Positions 3,345 to 9,581 of a DNA stretch of 18,770 bases are shown piece after piece (the stretch's first letter is position 1; every line of letters starts with the position of its first letter). The DNA is taken from NCBI GenBank assembly GCA_027445725.1, contig DAIAVG010000009.1:1-18770 (forward strand), given 5' to 3'. Below the pieces are notes generated by a model, which was given only the letters and a program-made list of their open reading frames with translations, was not told the origin of the DNA and did no database searches. This stretch comes from Acidithiobacillus sp. GTDB lineage: Bacteria > Pseudomonadota > Gammaproteobacteria > Acidithiobacillales > Acidithiobacillaceae. The translations under genes were made by a program, and so were the position numbers.

Positions 3345-3884
3345 TCATACCGTCATGAGGCGATCTAACAAGGTTTTCGAGATGCCTGTTACTTCCAGCA
3401 GGCGTGCCGTATAAGCGCGGTCCGTGAGATACTGACAGAGATCCAGCATGCGCAGGATGGCTGCTGTTAAAGCGCCTTCGCTGTATTGTTGGGAAACGCC
3501 GTGGGTACCTAATAATTGCGGTAAGGCGGCTCGCAAAAAGCTCATGGCAAAGGCGGTATACAGCGGCGGAATGCGTTTTTGTACATTGTTGCTGCCCTCC
3601 TGATGCTGGGCTTCCAGAAACTGCTGATCGTGCGGACCGGTGAACAGGTTGCCGAGCCAATGGGTCAGATGTCGTGGAAAATCCTGATGTGCAGTCGCGA
3701 GCCTCTGCTCTACTTCGGGGACGGCCTTCAGGTGCTGAAGGAAGAGGGCAACGACTTCCGGCAGCAGCGCCAGTGCCTGGGGTGCGGCAGACTGGATGAG
3801 ATGCACATCCGTTTCCTTCAACCCTGCCATCTGCACAAAAATCGCCAGGTTCTGATCTTTGTTCACTATTTCTAAGAAATCCAT
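3345..3884 (-). CDS. Globin-sensor-like (protoglobin fold) single-domain protein without proximal histidine
   Basis: The 179-residue protein resembles the globin domain of globin-coupled sensors (HemAT, DosC/YddV). It has W76 with NLFTGPHD (79-86), the F-helix region ending in RIPPLYTAF (104-112) and a long C-terminal helical part. In heme-binding members the F helix reads G-x-x-H followed by about five residues and then a proline. Here the equivalent is G97-S-N-N100, so the proximal histidine is replaced by Asn100. Heme binding is thus doubtful, as in the non-heme globin domain of RsbR. No output domain is attached; the EAL-HDOD gene one base downstream is the likely partner. I chose ATG 3884 rather than ATG 3908 because a strong AGGGGG ribosome site lies 8 bases before it. 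The longer form would add MRHQGVKR. Family assignment is by motif only and should be treated as probable. Confidence 0.72.
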   Translation of the reverse strand: MDFLEIVNKDQNLAIFVQMAGLKETDVHLIQSAAPQALALLPEVVALFLQHLKAVPEVEQRLATAHQDFPRHLTHWLGNLFTGPHDQQFLEAQHQEGSNNVQKRIPPLYTAFAMSFLRAALPQLLGTHGVSQQYSEGALTAAILRMLDLCQYLTDRAYTARLLEVTGISKTLLDRLMTV

Positions 3885-3892
3885 ACGCTTTA

Positions 3893-3898
3893 CCCCCT
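3893..3898 (-). promoter_or_regulatory. Ribosome binding site that fixes the start of the globin-like gene
   Basis: On the minus strand AGGGGG lies 8 bases before the ATG at 3882-3884. The upstream ATG at 3906-3908 has no comparable site, which favours the shorter 179-residue protein. Confidence 0.6.
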
Positions 3899-3978
3899 GG
3901 TGTCTCATTGATGTTCTAATCTAATCTGCTGGAGATTACACGATATCGGCAAGATTGCCAGAGGTCCACCGGAGTCAC

Positions 3979-4050: not shown

Positions 4051-4983
4051 ATGACGGATAATCTCCCTTTCGATCAGATACTTGACCAGGCTTTTCAGGT
4101 GCTGGTGTCCCAGATCAAATCTGGTCGGACACAGATGGAACAAGCGGTTTCTGACATTATGAGCCGCTTCGTCAGCCTCCATGAGCGTCTGGGTAATGCC
4201 GTGCAAGCCTCGCGGGGCGCGGCGCGGGCCGAAGAGGGAAATCCGGATATGGGCAGTTTGTTCAGCACGAGTGAGGCGGAACTCCTGGGCGTACTCCAAC
4301 ATATCGGCACGGCTACCCAGCAGCATGAAGCGCAGCAGCAGGTAATATCGGCGCTCTTGTCGCAGATCAATACGCTGGAGCGTATGGCGCAGGATGTGGG
4401 GGAAATCGCCTCCCAGACAACTTTGCTCGCGCTCAACGCGGCCATAGAAGCGGCACGCGCTGGCGAGCATGGCCGCGGTTTTGCCGTGGTGGCCGATGCG
4501 GTGCGCAAGCTATCCACGCGCTCCAAGGAAACCAGCCAGCAAATGAGTGAGAGCGTTAAAGCCATCAGCACGGCCATTCGTGGTGTGGTCGCACAAACGG
4601 CAACGGCTATTCAGCAAGAAAGGCAGTTCCTGACCAATGCAGAGCTGTCGATCCGCAGCGTATTGCATCGCCTGCAAGACATGACAACCCGCCTTTCCGG
4701 CTCCGCAGATATTCTGCAAAACGAGGCACAAAGGATCGGTGAAGAAATGGATCAGTTACTGGTTGCCCTGCAATTTCAGGATCGGGTCAGTCAGGTGCTG
4801 ATGCATGTGGAAGAGGGAATGAGTGATCTGCCCCCGCACCTCGCACAGGGAAATCCCGGGAGTGGGATAGAAGAATGGCTGCAGGCGTTGACCAGAAAAT
4901 ATACCACCCACGAAGAACGCGCCATTCATCATGGTGAAGGCACTGCGGCCCCGGACGCCGGTCAAGATATCACCTTTTTCTAA
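4051..4983 (+). CDS. Soluble chemoreceptor-like signalling protein with a CheZ-like FQDxxxQ motif
   Basis: The 310-residue protein has no membrane segment and no sensor domain. A helical hairpin occupies about residues 1-255, with a clear receptor tip ([20 protein letters not shown] from 116, then [15 protein letters not shown] at 141-155) of the kind that binds CheA and CheW. Near the base of the returning helix stands [12 protein letters not shown] (239-250). This resembles the CheZ active segment AQDFQDLTGQVI; Asp244 and Gln248 match the catalytic D143 and Q147 of E. coli CheZ. A 55-residue low-complexity linker containing KYTTHEER leads to the tail DITFF at the end. CheZ also ends, 67 residues after its glutamine, in a phenylalanine-terminated CheY-binding peptide; here the distance is 62. 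The gene follows a sigma-28-like promoter and precedes cheY by 24 bases. Receptor assignment is firm; phosphatase activity is inference. Confidence 0.88.
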
Positions 4984-5007: not shown

Positions 5008-5379
5008 ATGGCAAAAACAGTTCTTGTAGTTGATGATTCTGCATCCTTGCGGCAAGTGGTCAGCATTGCGCTGAAAGGGGCAGGGTATGAAGTCATCGAG
5101 GCCTGTGACGGTGTCGACGGCCTGGCAAAACTGGGCGCAGCAGCCAAAGTCCATCTCATCATCAGTGATGTGAATATGCCCAACATGGATGGCATTACCT
5201 TCGTCAAGGAGGTCAAGCAGAAGCCGGAATACAAATTCACGCCGGTGATCATGCTCACCACTGAGGCGGAAGAAGAGAAAAAACTCCAGGGACAGGCGGC
5301 TGGCGCTAAAGCTTGGGTGATCAAGCCGTTCCAGCCTCAGCAGATGCTGGCCGCGGTAGGCAAGCTGATTTTGCCCTGA
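5008..5379 (+). CDS. cheY: CheY, chemotaxis response regulator
   Basis: The 123-residue single receiver domain has all the landmarks: acidic pair Asp9-Asp10, phospho-acceptor Asp54 in IISDVNMPNMDG, Thr84/Thr85 in MLTTEA and Lys106 in VIKPF. The switch aromatic expected three residues before the lysine is Trp103 instead of the E. coli tyrosine. Phosphorylated by CheA, it would bind the flagellar switch and change rotation. AAGGAG about 9 bases before the ATG is a good ribosome site. It is the second gene after the sigma-28-like promoter, and its stop shares one base with the start of the STAS gene (TGATG). No separate cheZ follows, which is where that gene often sits in beta- and gammaproteobacteria. 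Confidence 0.95.
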   Translation: MAKTVLVVDDSASLRQVVSIALKGAGYEVIEACDGVDGLAKLGAAAKVHLIISDVNMPNMDGITFVKEVKQKPEYKFTPVIMLTTEAEEEKKLQGQAAGAKAWVIKPFQPQQMLAAVGKLILP

Positions 5380-5711
5380 TGGCTATGGAAATTCAGCAGG
5401 AGCGGCAGGGTGCCAACCTGCAAATCCGGTTATCCGGCGATCTGGATATTTACGCTGCGGCGCCCTTGCGTACGCATTTGTTGACCGTGCTCCAGCAGCA
5501 TCATGAAATTGAACTGGTTTTAGACGAAGTGGCTGAAGTGGACGGGGCCGGTTTGCAAATATTATTGGCGACTAAAGCCGAAGCCATGCGCCTTGGTGTG
5601 ACTCTGCGACTCACCGGACATTCAGCCGCTATGGTTCGGGTACTACAGTTGTGCCGTCTGACGGCCTATTTTGGTGATCCCGTTATTCTGACGCGGGAGA
5701 TGGCCGGATGA
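5379..5711 (+). CDS. STAS-domain protein of the chemotaxis operon
   Basis: The 110-residue protein is a single STAS domain: LQIRLSGDLDIYAAAPLRTH in the first half, then ELVLDEVAEVDGAGLQILL and the closing helices. In phosphorylatable anti-sigma antagonists such as SpoIIAA the loop is D-S-S-G; here it is D-G-A-G, so regulation by serine phosphorylation at this site is excluded. STAS proteins between cheY and cheA recur in proteobacterial chemotaxis clusters, where their role is not well defined; binding to CheA or receptors is possible. ATG 5379 overlaps the cheY stop and no clear ribosome site is present, so translation is probably coupled. ATG 5385 is an equally possible start, and an upstream start at 5313 would lie wholly inside cheY and is unlikely. 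The end overlaps cheA by ATGA. Confidence 0.85.
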   Translation: MAMEIQQERQGANLQIRLSGDLDIYAAAPLRTHLLTVLQQHHEIELVLDEVAEVDGAGLQILLATKAEAMRLGVTLRLTGHSAAMVRVLQLCRLTAYFGDPVILTREMAG

Positions 5712-7909
5712 TTGACCTTGATCCGCAAATGGCAGCGGCACTACAGACTTTTTTTGAAGAAAGTCGTGAATTGCTGCAGGACATGGAAAATGCGCTGTTG
5801 TTCATGGAGAATGCGGGCGCTGATTCGGAACGTATAAACGCAGTTTTTCGGGCGGCGCATACCATCAAGGGGTCTGCTGGCCTGTTCGGGCTGGAAGAAG
5901 TGGTGCGTTTTACCCATCGTCTGGAGAATCTGCTGGATCAAATCCGGTCGGGAGTGACGGATCTCACGCCGGTGCGCATCACTTTGCTACTTTCTTGTGG
6001 CGATCATATCGCGGGCTATTTGGACCGAATTGCCACTGACTCGTCATTGGATCAGGTTTTTCTTGCGGAGGATTTGCGGCTGCTCGGAGATCTTGCGGCC
6101 CAATTGGGTTCTAGCCCGGTAGCCAGCATCGCACCTGCCATAGCACCTGCTCTCGCCCCGACAACGTTGGCACTAACCGTACCCCCTTCACCGGAACCAG
6201 AGTTCAGCAACTCGCCCGGTTCGGTGCAAACGGGCAACTGGCATATTTCCCTGCGTTTCGGGCTCGACACGTTTCGCGATGGCATGGACCCCCTTTCTTT
6301 TCTGCGCTATCTGGAGCAGATCGGCGAAATCATAGGGATCGTCACCTTGACCGACAGCCTGCCAGCACTGTCCCAGATGGACGCAGAAAGCTGCTATCTG
6401 GGTTTTGAAATCAGCTTCAGGAGTTCCGCCGACAAGGCGAAAATTGCCGATGTTTTTGATTTCGTCCAAGAATCCAGCACGATTCACATCCTCCCTGCAC
6501 ATAGCCAGATCACTGCCTATCTGCAGCTTATTCAGCAGCTCCCGGAAGCCGATCAGCATCTCGGGGAAATACTCGTCTCCGTCGGATCGCTGACCGAAGA
6601 GGAACTGCAAAAGGCCCTCACTTTGCAGGACGCGGGAAATCAGGGGGGTCAGCATCAACCACTCGGCGAGATTCTGGTGGCTCAAAAAATGGTGCAGGAG
6701 CCGGTGGTGCAGGGCGCTCTGGAGAAACAGCAGCAACAGCGCGAACATCAGGTGGTCGAGCGCCAGATGCTGCGTGTACGCGCTGCCGATCTGGATCAAC
6801 TGGTGAACCTGGTCGGGGAGCTGGTCATCGCCAGTGCCGCCAACAGTCTTTATGCAGCGCAGAGCAATGCCGAGGAACGCGTCGAATCCGCCGCTCAGGT
6901 GGCGCGCCTAGTGGAAGATATCCGCGATGGTGCTCTCCACCTGCGAATGATTGATGTAGCCGAGGTCTTTCAGCGTTTTCCCCGTGTGGTGCGGGATACT
7001 GCACGTACTCTGGGCAAGGATATTCGTCTGGAGATCAGCGGCGAAGGGACGGAACTCGACAAGAGCATGGCGGAAAAAATCACCGATCCGCTCATGCACT
7101 TGGTGCGTAATGCCATGGATCACGGCATTGAGAGCGCGGAGCGCCGTCACGCGCTCGGCAAACCGGCTCAGGGTTGTATCAGCCTGCATGCCTGTCACGA
7201 TGCCGGCGGCATCATCATCGAAGTGCGCGACGATGGCGGCGGACTCAATCGCGAGAAAATTCTGGGCAAGGCCATAGAAAAGGGGCTGGTCACTCCAGAG
7301 CAACAGCTCAGTGACCAGGAAATCTACGCGCTGATATTCGCCCCTGGGTTTTCCACAGCCGATCAGGTGAGCGACATTTCCGGGCGCGGGGTGGGGATGG
7401 ACGTGGTGCGTCAAAATATCGAGGCTATCCGTGGCAGTATCGAAATCCACTCCACTCCCGGTGCAGGCAGCACCATGCGCATTCGTCTGCCACTCACCTT
7501 GTCTATTATCGACGGCTTTCTCGTCAAGCTGGCGACGGATACCTTTGTCATCCCCGCTGAATCCGTTGAGGAATGCCTGGAATATCCGGAACAGCAAGGA
7601 ACCGTCGGATATATGGTATTACGCGATCAGGCTCTGCCGCTACTGCATTTGACCGGAGTTTTTCGGTTTGATGCCCAACCCGAAAAGCGTCGCAATGTCA
7701 TTGTCGTGCGTCATGGTCAGGACCGGGTTGGCATGGTAGTCGGGGCTATCCTCGGCAATCAGCAGACGGTCATCAAGCCGCTCGGCAAGTTGTTCGATCA
7801 GGTACCGGGGATATCGGCAGCGACCATTCTCGGCAATGGCGACGTCGCCCCCATTCTGGATATTCCGGCGCTGATTCACCATCACGCTTCCGCAAAACAC
7901 ATTCATTGA
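5708..7909 (+). CDS. cheA: CheA, chemotaxis histidine kinase
   Basis: The 733-residue protein is the kinase that phosphorylates CheY and CheB. Domains in order: P1/Hpt at about 10-125 with phospho-acceptor His51 in [10 protein letters not shown]; a Pro/Ala-rich linker (138-170); a conserved region at about 177-263 in place of the usual P2; two GspE/MshEN-like 24-residue repeats (284-307 and 318-341); the P3 dimerisation helices (about 350-425); the P4 ATPase domain with N box [10 protein letters not shown] (464-473), G1 DDGGG (508-512) and G2 GRGVGMDV (559-566); and a P5 CheW-like domain (about 597-725). The catalytic motifs are intact. The repeats resemble cyclic di-GMP-binding segments, but the spacer is 10 residues rather than 5. 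The start overlaps the STAS stop (ATGA). A chemoreceptor gene follows after 22 bases. Confidence 0.96.
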
Positions 7910-7931: not shown

Positions 7932-9581
7932 ATGTTCGGGAATATGCGTATTGGCCTGCGCTTGGGCGCCAGTTATGGCGTGATCATCATCCTGCTGATC
8001 CTTATGGCGGCAACGGCGATGGTGCAACTGCAGAAAATCAAGGGCGATACCGATAACATTACCGGCGTGGTGTGGCCCAATGCCCATCGCGCCAATGAAC
8101 TCCACCTCGCGGTCCTGGCCATGGCCAGTGACTGTCGCGATGTGTTGTTAAACCAGCCCCCCGGGCAACGTGCCCAAGGTCAAAAGAACATCCGGAATCT
8201 GCAATCGCGGAGTCAGGATATTTTGACGGCGCTTCATGAAGATGTCCAGCCTCCGCAGGGCAAATTGCTGGTGGAAAAAATCCAGGGCCACATGGGAGAC
8301 TACAATTCCGCGCTAAAGGTCTGTCTTCAAGACGCGGATGCCGTCACCGCAGGAACCGCCAGTGCGGCGACCAATAGTGCCGCCATCACGCAGTTTCAGC
8401 AGCAGGCTGTCCCCCAGGAAGACCGGCTTCGCGCTGAAATCACTCAACTCAGTAAAAACATAGTCGCCCGTTTTGGTACGGCGACGCAGCAAAGCAATGC
8501 CGATTATGTCAGGGCCCGTGACCTGGCTGCCGGGATCGGCGTTGCCGCTATTCTCATGGCGATTTTGATGGGGTTTTTCCTGACCCGCTCCATCACCCGC
8601 CCCTTGAATGAGGCCGTCGGCGTGGCCGAACTGGTTGCCGATGGTGATCTCTCCATGCAGGTGGCATCTCGGACCCACGATGAAACGGGCCGCTTGATGG
8701 CGGCGATGGCCACTATGGTGGAGCGCCTGACCCAAACCATTGGCGAGGTGCGTAGTGCTGCAGACAATCTCTCCAGTGCCTCCGAGCAGGTGAGCGCAAC
8801 TTCTCAGTCCCTCTCTCAGTCCGCCCCTGAGCAGGCCGCCAGTGTCGAGGAGACTTCCGCCACTCTGGAAGAGGCCGCGGCTTCCATCAAGCAAAACGCG
8901 GAGAATGCGCGGGTGACCGACGACATCGCCATCGGTGCCGCCAAAGAGGCGCGTATGGGCGGCGACGCAGTTACCCAGACGGTGCAGGCTATGAAGAATA
9001 TTGCCGATAAGATTGGAATCATCGACGATATCGCCTATCAGACCAATATGCTGGCACTCAACGCCGCTATCGAGGCCGCCCGTGCTGGTGAACATGGCAA
9101 GGGCTTCGCCGTGGTCGCCGCCGAGGTCCGTAAACTGGCGGAGCGCAGTCAGGTGGCGGCACAGGAAATTGGCGCACTGGCCAGCAGCAGTGTGCAGGTG
9201 GCGGAGCAGGCCGGAAGCGCTCTGACCGCCCTGGTCCCTGCGATCGGCAAAACCTCTGACCTGGTGCAGGAAATCAACGCCGCTTCCAATGAACAGGCGG
9301 CCGGCATTGATCAGATCAACTTGGCGGTGGGGCAACTCAATCAGGTCACCCAGCAAAATGCGTCCGCCTCGGAAGAACTGGCGGCGACGGCAGAGGAGAT
9401 GAGCGGACAGGCCGAACAACTTCAGCAGTTGATGGCGACGTTCCGGCTACGCACGCAGGGCGGCGGATCTTCTACCAAAGCCAGTGCGCATAAAGGCTCT
9501 GCGGCAGTAGCACACCTCCAGGGACGTGGACAGGATGCGGCGCCAGTAAGTGCTGACAGCCACGATTTCGTACGCTTCTGA
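7932..9581 (+). CDS. Methyl-accepting chemotaxis protein (transmembrane receptor)
   Basis: The 549-residue receptor has a membrane helix at about 13-32, a periplasmic helical sensor of about 160 residues (four-helix-bundle type), a second membrane helix at about 197-217, HAMP at 218-270 and a full signalling hairpin with the tip [19 protein letters not shown] (365-383) and [18 protein letters not shown]. Methylation-type segments occur on both arms ([10 protein letters not shown], then [15 protein letters not shown]). After a flexible linker the protein ends in DFVRF, which fits the x-[FW]-x-x-[FW] pattern of CheR-tethering pentapeptides. AGAGGAATT before the ATG is a good ribosome site. The ligand cannot be told from the sequence. 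It lies between cheA and cheW, so it is likely the main partner of this array. A serine-proline replaces the more usual glycine-alanine in SQSAPEQ. Confidence 0.95.

Follow-up and report, generated by a model that had tools for sequence, protein, structure and literature searches.

A soluble McpA/CttP-like chemoreceptor from an F7-type gene cluster carries a CheZ-like C-terminal module and is a candidate phosphatase for the adjoining CheY

Results

Gene content of the locus

The window analyzed here, a stretch of 18,770 nucleotides from contig DAIAVG010000009.1 of Acidithiobacillus sp. (assembly GCA_027445725.1), is a flagellar and chemotaxis region whose gene order was established from Pfam matches. 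Its left part carries the end of fliL, motA, motB, and, on the minus strand, genes for an EAL/HDOD protein and a protoglobin. The receptor gene studied here, P0001, is followed rightwards by cheY, a STAS protein gene, cheA, a gene for a HAMP-containing receptor, cheW, cheR, cheD, and cheB, and 3' of cheB lie genes for a GGDEF/EAL protein, a PilZ protein, and a DUF2802 protein, then a fliK-like gene and a flhB-like end (Table 1). The protoglobin gene (3345-3908) starts 142 bases before the receptor gene and is divergent from it. CheZ is the enzyme that inactivates the chemotaxis messenger CheY; in line with the initial annotation, which saw no cheZ in the window, Pfam CheZ matched none of the 20 window ORFs scanned at E 0.001. 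The receptor gene thus adjoins a cluster with cheY, STAS, cheA, cheW, cheR, cheD, and cheB, which we assign to class F7 from its gene order and PMC7184735 rather than from a CheA classifier.

Table 1. Coordinates of the receptor gene, its features, and the genes immediately downstream
Feature	Position in window	Strand	Evidence
McpA/CttP-like chemoreceptor gene P0001, 310 aa, with CheZ-like C-terminal module	4051..4983	+	translation, Pfam MCPsignal, homologs, gene order
Receptor hairpin tip, about residues 126-154	4426..4512	+	conserved columns in two homolog alignments
CheZ-like helix stretch, residues 207-269	4669..4857	+	gap-free with CheZ via the family profile (hhalign with controls); helix 138-265 in the model
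FQDRVSQ, residues 242-248 (Asp244, 4780-4782; Gln248, 4792-4794)	4774..4794	+	Asp and Gln invariant in 28/28; over CheZ FQDLTGQ in five profile alignments
C-terminal peptide DITFF, residues 306-310	4966..4980	+	last Phe invariant in 28/28 and 22/22
cheY, F7 type (proposed substrate)	5008..5379	+	Response_reg, 90.4 bits
STAS-domain gene, start overlapping the cheY stop	5379..5711	+	Pfam STAS; ATG at 5379 is the chosen start
cheA	5708..7909	+	Hpt, H-kinase_dim, HATPase_c, and CheW domains

The receptor and its family

The gene had been read as encoding a soluble chemoreceptor with a CheZ-like active segment, and the translation bears out the details: FQDRVSQVL occupies residues 242-250 with Asp244 and Gln248 at the expected places, the protein ends in DITFF, and 24 bases separate its stop from the start of cheY. 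From Gln248 to the C terminus there are 62 residues, compared with 59-110 in 17 CheZ proteins, of which 13 have 67-76. The label soluble fits P0001 itself; many of its relatives, of ~390-430 aa, bear what by eye is a hydrophobic N-terminal extension. Pfam finds MCPsignal only (82.6 bits, cut-off 34.6), and the receptor hairpin tip is the region expected to bind CheA and CheW. The family comprises receptors of ~310-430 aa, with source names that include Acidithiobacillus, Thiomonas, and Pseudomonas.

In P0001 and its relatives, the conserved C terminus (DITFF and kin) lacks the CheR-pentapeptide aromatic residue at position 2, following the definition in the part of PMC7184735 available to us. 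By gene order and C terminus, P0001 fits the McpA/CttP-like receptors of the ancestral F7 cluster kind. The same part of that paper describes McpA/CttP-like receptors as adjoining F7 clusters and co-evolving with F7 yet being dispensable for the F7 array, and calls their strikingly conserved C terminus important, its role being unclear; McpA showed no interaction with any of four CheR proteins. In organisms of stages 1 and 2, cheY is found there in both clusters and cheZ with F6 only. The accessible portion of a review (PMC7534058) states that the Pseudomonas member clusters with F6 proteins.

Conservation of the motif and the C terminus

The motif of the P0001 family is not a chance occurrence, because FQDR[VT][SN]Q is kept in 119 of 121 proteins (P0001 and the best 120 of 7989 scored homologs); one of the two exceptions reads QFHDRVNQ, and the other, of 204 aa, has no motif. 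The distance from tip to motif is 112 residues in 120 of these 121. When 28 homologs taken from the matches listed were aligned without regard to the motif, Gln241, Phe242, Asp244, Arg245, Gln248, and Thr308 to Phe310 were invariant, and the conserved D-x-x-x-Q pair on a helix, a feature of CheZ, is therefore present in this family (28/28, with the helix taken from the model described below). A set of 27 more divergent F7-type receptors, from which L085 was excluded as nearly the window's own gene, retained Phe40, Gln241, Gln243, Asp244, Arg245, Gln248, Tyr284, and Phe310 as the invariant positions outside the tip region; 15 of the 27 had been selected by a QFQDR..Q pattern, one that all 16 module ORFs at L084-L099 satisfied. 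Across a wider set of 22 C-terminal modules, most of them selected by a motif pattern, invariance is limited to Q, F, D, Q, and the final F. Two loci (L010 and L011) keep the motif, tail, and cheY neighbor despite a degenerate tip.

Profile-profile comparison with CheZ

The CheZ profile was built from 17 of 20 fetched CheZ loci, the other three having been dropped because no ORF matched the motif pattern; motif patterns also guided the choice of part of the receptor sets. Aligned to it with hhalign, the F7-type modules (23 rows) gave p 1.8e-4, the modules of other receptors (23 rows) p 1.1e-5, and a third set (22 rows, 16 of them from genomes outside the window's class) p 8.8e-4, and the combined sets reached p 2.6e-6 (46 rows) and 3e-6 (68 rows). 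Each of the five alignments begins at CheZ column 176 and runs for 63-66 columns with no gaps, placing the motif over FQDLTGQ with Asp on Asp and Gln on Gln. As controls, reversed CheZ gave p 0.005 to 0.08, and 13 generic receptor profiles, overlapping because their sets were drawn from 75 sequences, gave p 0.005 or worse, none of them reaching the CheZ Asp column. Masking 14 motif columns left this register on top, at weak p-values (0.0065 to 0.03), and three tests with shuffled flanks (100 shuffles each) never gave a score as high as the real one. Heptad periodicity favors in-phase registers, so the register supports common descent without proving it. At the level of these profiles, the resemblance of the module to CheZ is more than a heptapeptide, and the CheZ-like motif observed in the initial annotation is confirmed in a stronger form than was stated there: the profile-profile comparison that it had proposed returned an exact register under controls, joined by the Pfam scan, the reciprocal profile matches, and the conserved Asp and Gln.

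Database and single-sequence searches

In a comparison of 22 module pieces with 24736 Pfam families (E up to 1), 8 pieces matched CheZ (best E 0.0016) and 2 the next family, making CheZ the only family matched by more than two. With 22 generic receptor pieces, 22 families were matched by at least two pieces each; CheZ was not one of them, and DUF1664 was matched by 8. Because an unrelated coiled-coil family can reach such a count with generic pieces, the 8 module matches carry weight only through the identity of the family as CheZ. P0001's own module piece matched no Pfam family even at E 1. The full protein gave no CheZ match in a Pfam scan at E 0.001, staying below the gathering cut-off of CheZ (PF04344), and an NCBIfam scan at E 1 returned receptor families and weak coiled-coil matches with no CheZ family; the case therefore rests on family profiles. 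In the reverse direction, the module profile matched 29 CheZ ORFs in 232 genomes (hand count among the matches listed), and Pfam CheZ weakly matched module ORFs, which made up 6 of 10 sub-cut-off rows in one search and 4 of 10 in another, one being shared.

In local HMM scans, the likeness was weak for single sequences. The CheZ profile reached at least 15 bits in 8 of 46 motif receptors and in none of 82 generic ones; its best match spanned both Asp residues in 40 of the 46, with a gap-free alignment of Asp on Asp in only 19. The combined receptor profile scored at least 15 bits in 10 of the 17 CheZ proteins, and of three generic profiles, one did so in 2/17 (best 22). In a PDB search, E. coli CheZ came at rank 12 (E 1.0), behind unrelated or designed coiled coils, and the motif pair fell on its residues 143 and 147.

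Structure models and the C-terminal tail

AlphaFold models, which are monomers, show P0001 fused to CheY in one chain as a long hairpin, with helix 138-265 running through the motif and a disordered linker beyond it. The tail forms a short strand (307-309) at low confidence in the window pair; in the L023 pair, modeled with the same fused design, there is no tail strand and the tail is disordered. Foldseek and VIA searches with the fused receptor-CheY model returned lists filled by CheY chains rather than by matches to the CheZ-like part.

The tail of CheZ, of DDLLxxLGF type, is a helix that binds CheY, and it is absent from P0001. Most of the 17 CheZ proteins fetched end in DDLLSSLGF or close to it (FQDLTGQVI itself occurs in 3/17), and DITFF is unlike this helix, so that the tail likeness is, as had been noted at the outset, weaker than that of the motif. 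A receptor with a zinc-binding region that looks CZB-like by eye (L054:120-1301) ends in GDVDLF and has no D-x-x-x-Q motif. Judging from the occurrence of the C-terminal peptide on other receptor types, it may have a partner of its own.

Pairing with cheY

The adjacency to cheY is frequent among relatives of P0001. Among 97 receptor ORFs at the loci first retrieved, which were found with the window family and so lean toward it, a single-domain cheY lies directly downstream of 10 of the 16 with motif and tail and of none of the 81 without the motif. At F7-type loci (best matches and hand picks, 16 plus 5 more, not all matches, from 21 genomes including G001), a single-domain F7-type cheY follows on the same strand in 21/21, within 62 bases in 20 and at 308 in one. 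Other loci (L100-L113) have a single-domain response regulator at most 52 bases downstream in 3/14, two of these low-scoring. Of 120 listed relatives of the F7 cheY, 119 carry Asn at D+2 and Glu at T+2, the residues of E. coli CheY at 59 and 89.

CheZ elsewhere in the genomes

The idea that the receptor stands in for a missing cheZ, with a genuine cheZ elsewhere in the same genome named as evidence against it, did not survive for the F7-type members: each of the 21 F7-type genomes examined gave a Pfam CheZ match above the cut-off, and replacement of a missing cheZ is rejected for them. The co-occurring cheZ removes the argument from substitution and leaves that from pathway specificity in place. 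In 20/21 of these genomes, several of them drafts, a different contig carries CheZ or its distance from the receptor locus exceeds 400 kb. In the nearest genome, G001, the gene for a CheZ of 183 aa, with QDLAGQ and the tail DEVDALLAELGI, neighbors another cheY and what by eye is a cheA. Genome G221 is the one in which receptor and cheZ lie close together. An F6-like set (a cheY scoring 82, cheZ, and cheA) comes first there, and after it lie the receptor gene, an F7-type cheY scoring 218, one more ORF, and another cheA; cheZ is thus grouped with the F6-like cheY and the receptor with that of F7 type, which gives each cheY a partner of its own. A phylum sample, at least 90% complete except for G001, held 63 genomes with the module at E 1e-8. 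Within the window's class, 29/29 had a CheZ match at E 0.001, and outside it 32/34 had none at that threshold (hand count); outside the window's class, the module may still replace a missing cheZ.

Relatives without a receptor tip

Five relatives (L183, 207 aa; L158, 234 aa; L168; L170; L172) lack the tip and retain the motif together with the tail. A single-domain cheY follows L183 at a distance of 80 bases, and for the other four, a response-regulator ORF lies upstream at a distance of at most 82 bases or overlaps; for L170 and L158 the distance is no more than 80 bases, or there is overlap. In 16 genomes outside the window's class (L165-L180), ORFs of ~330-370 aa carry QFED...Q and endings of the form [SN][ML]D[EK]G[DE][IV][ED]LF with tips altered or missing; 0/16 of these genomes gave a CheZ match at E 0.001.

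A family of small proteins, ~160-225 aa and mostly with QFYD...Q, gave 1444 matches in a large database, and every name shown among the 120 matches listed is "hypothetical protein." The family may be a stand-alone relative of that module. Its profile matched the F7-type receptor module at p 3.9e-14 (HMM-HMM) and gave no match with CheZ (p 0.14). Members lie directly before cheR in 4 of the 7 loci whose neighbors were inspected (by Pfam in all four), with CheD confirmed in two and a CheB-like start seen by eye; the remaining three have no che gene directly adjoining. Nearly all members at L114-L115, L117, L118, L120, L121, L123, L124, and L126-L132 end in a peptide like [DE][IVF]E[LF]F.

Discussion

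We propose, with moderate confidence, that P0001 is a receptor-borne, CheZ-related phosphatase for the adjoining CheY, its catalytic step being conjectural. The initial annotation had suggested that a receptor tip and CheY-P dephosphorylation may be combined in one protein; the CheZ likeness, the conserved Asp and Gln, and the pairing with cheY support this in part, and substitution for a missing cheZ and a CheZ-like tail are not supported. In the proposed mechanism, the receptor hairpin would run into the CheZ-related module as one continuous coiled coil, and the receptor dimer would present Asp244 and Gln248 at the end of the bundle opposite the tip. The phosphorylated CheY of the F7 system would dock there, Gln248 would position the attacking water as it does in CheZ, and dephosphorylation would follow. 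The DITFF peptide probably tethers CheY or another partner, and the receptor tip would place the phosphatase in an array or couple its activity to receptor signaling. Because the F7 cluster has its own CheY and no CheZ, such a protein would be a pathway-specific off-switch, and Gln248 offers a one-residue test of it. Several results weigh against this reading: P0001 by itself gives no CheZ match, CheZ is present in the F7-type genomes examined, the tail differs from that of CheZ and a similar ending occurs on a receptor with no motif, the small family does not align with CheZ, and the Pseudomonas member is reported to cluster with F6 proteins.

The similarity might be one of architecture only, P0001 being an ordinary cytoplasmic chemoreceptor whose likeness to CheZ is coiled-coil convergence. 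Both proteins are helical bundles, designed coiled coils ranked above CheZ in the PDB search, and generic receptor pieces matched several unrelated coiled-coil families; we nevertheless regard convergence as very improbable, given that none of the 13 overlapping generic profiles, at p 0.005 or worse, reached the CheZ Asp column and that CheZ was singled out among 24736 Pfam families. A relationship to CheZ, or a shape like it, could on the other hand be retained without catalysis, the module binding CheY or CheY-P as a dock, a sink, or a delivery site beside CheA. The adjacency of cheY would suit such a role, as would a conserved C-terminal peptide able to tether a partner and the one low-confidence model with a tail strand, whose putative partner may be CheY; the second model, however, has no such strand, and a module used for docking alone would have little reason to conserve an Asp and a Gln at i and i+4 across such divergence, which makes this alternative unlikely in our view.

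A similarly low probability is given to the possibility that motif and tail serve the receptor only, in helix packing at the bundle end or in docking CheD, CheB, CheR, or the F7 cluster's STAS protein. The tail-type ending on the CZB receptor that has no motif points this way, as does the position of the small relatives before cheR, with CheD nearby in two loci, and the role of the C terminus is called unclear in the available part of PMC7184735, although McpA interacted with no CheR there. Such a role would leave unexplained the CheZ register, obtained with controls, and the retention of the motif in relatives that have no receptor tip. For the phosphatase reading, the comparison with CheZ (PF04344) is the closest: the two share a helix with D-x-x-x-Q, a register-exact profile similarity over ~63 columns, a cheY neighbor, and a terminal Phe, whereas the module of P0001 is fused to a receptor hairpin, scores below the Pfam cut-off, and has a short ITFF tail in place of a DDLLSSLGF-type helix. 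By score and tail the module is not Pfam CheZ, yet it probably works like CheZ.

Phosphatase motifs of this form occur on other helical bundles. HisKA_3 histidine kinases, for example, carry DxxxQ on a helical bundle and act with it on a receiver domain; unlike them, P0001 has no histidine next to the Asp and no kinase domain. In R. sphaeroides, the part of PMC2829493 at hand describes CheA3 as having a phosphatase domain specific for CheY6 that is likewise built into a chemosensory signaling protein, but there the phosphatase is carried by CheA and here by a receptor. A full-text literature search, mainly of non-subscription journal articles and with most matches judged from listings, returned no title or passage on a CheZ-like chemoreceptor.

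More tentatively, at somewhat below even confidence, we suggest that a widespread chemoreceptor class consists of receptor-borne CheZ-related phosphatases, many dedicated to an adjoining CheY, that the relatives with degenerate or missing tips and the small family of ~190 aa would be free-standing versions, and that an ancestral coiled-coil response-regulator phosphatase would be common to CheZ and these receptors. If true, sensing and signal termination would be joined in one protein and receptors would have a concrete evolutionary link to CheZ. The module would then supply the off-switch missing from F7 clusters, which have cheY and no cheZ in the portion of PMC7184735 available, and a phosphatase class would make sense of McpA-like receptors that co-evolve with F7 while the F7 array can do without them; confirmation would account for a widely conserved receptor family of puzzling role.

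P0001 shares with the McpA/CttP-like receptors of stage 1-2 F7 systems (PA0180 and VCA1088, compared by description, the Pseudomonas members of the P0001 family being known by source name) the position by cheY, the signaling domain, and the conserved C terminus with Val or Ile replacing the CheR-pentapeptide aromatic residue. The available parts of PMC7184735 and PMC7534058 do not mention a CheZ likeness for them, and P0001 differs in being soluble and in having a neighboring receptor of HAMP rather than Aer2-like type. The window's cluster looks intermediate between stages 2 and 3 of PMC7184735. Its second receptor (7932-9581) has HAMP and a borderline four-helix-bundle sensor instead of PAS repeats, and the McpA-like gene is still there. 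Residues 285-341 of the window's CheA give a sub-threshold NCBIfam match to an MshE-related c-di-GMP-binding domain (34.5 bits, cut-off 38), and genes for EAL, GGDEF, and PilZ proteins share the window with it.
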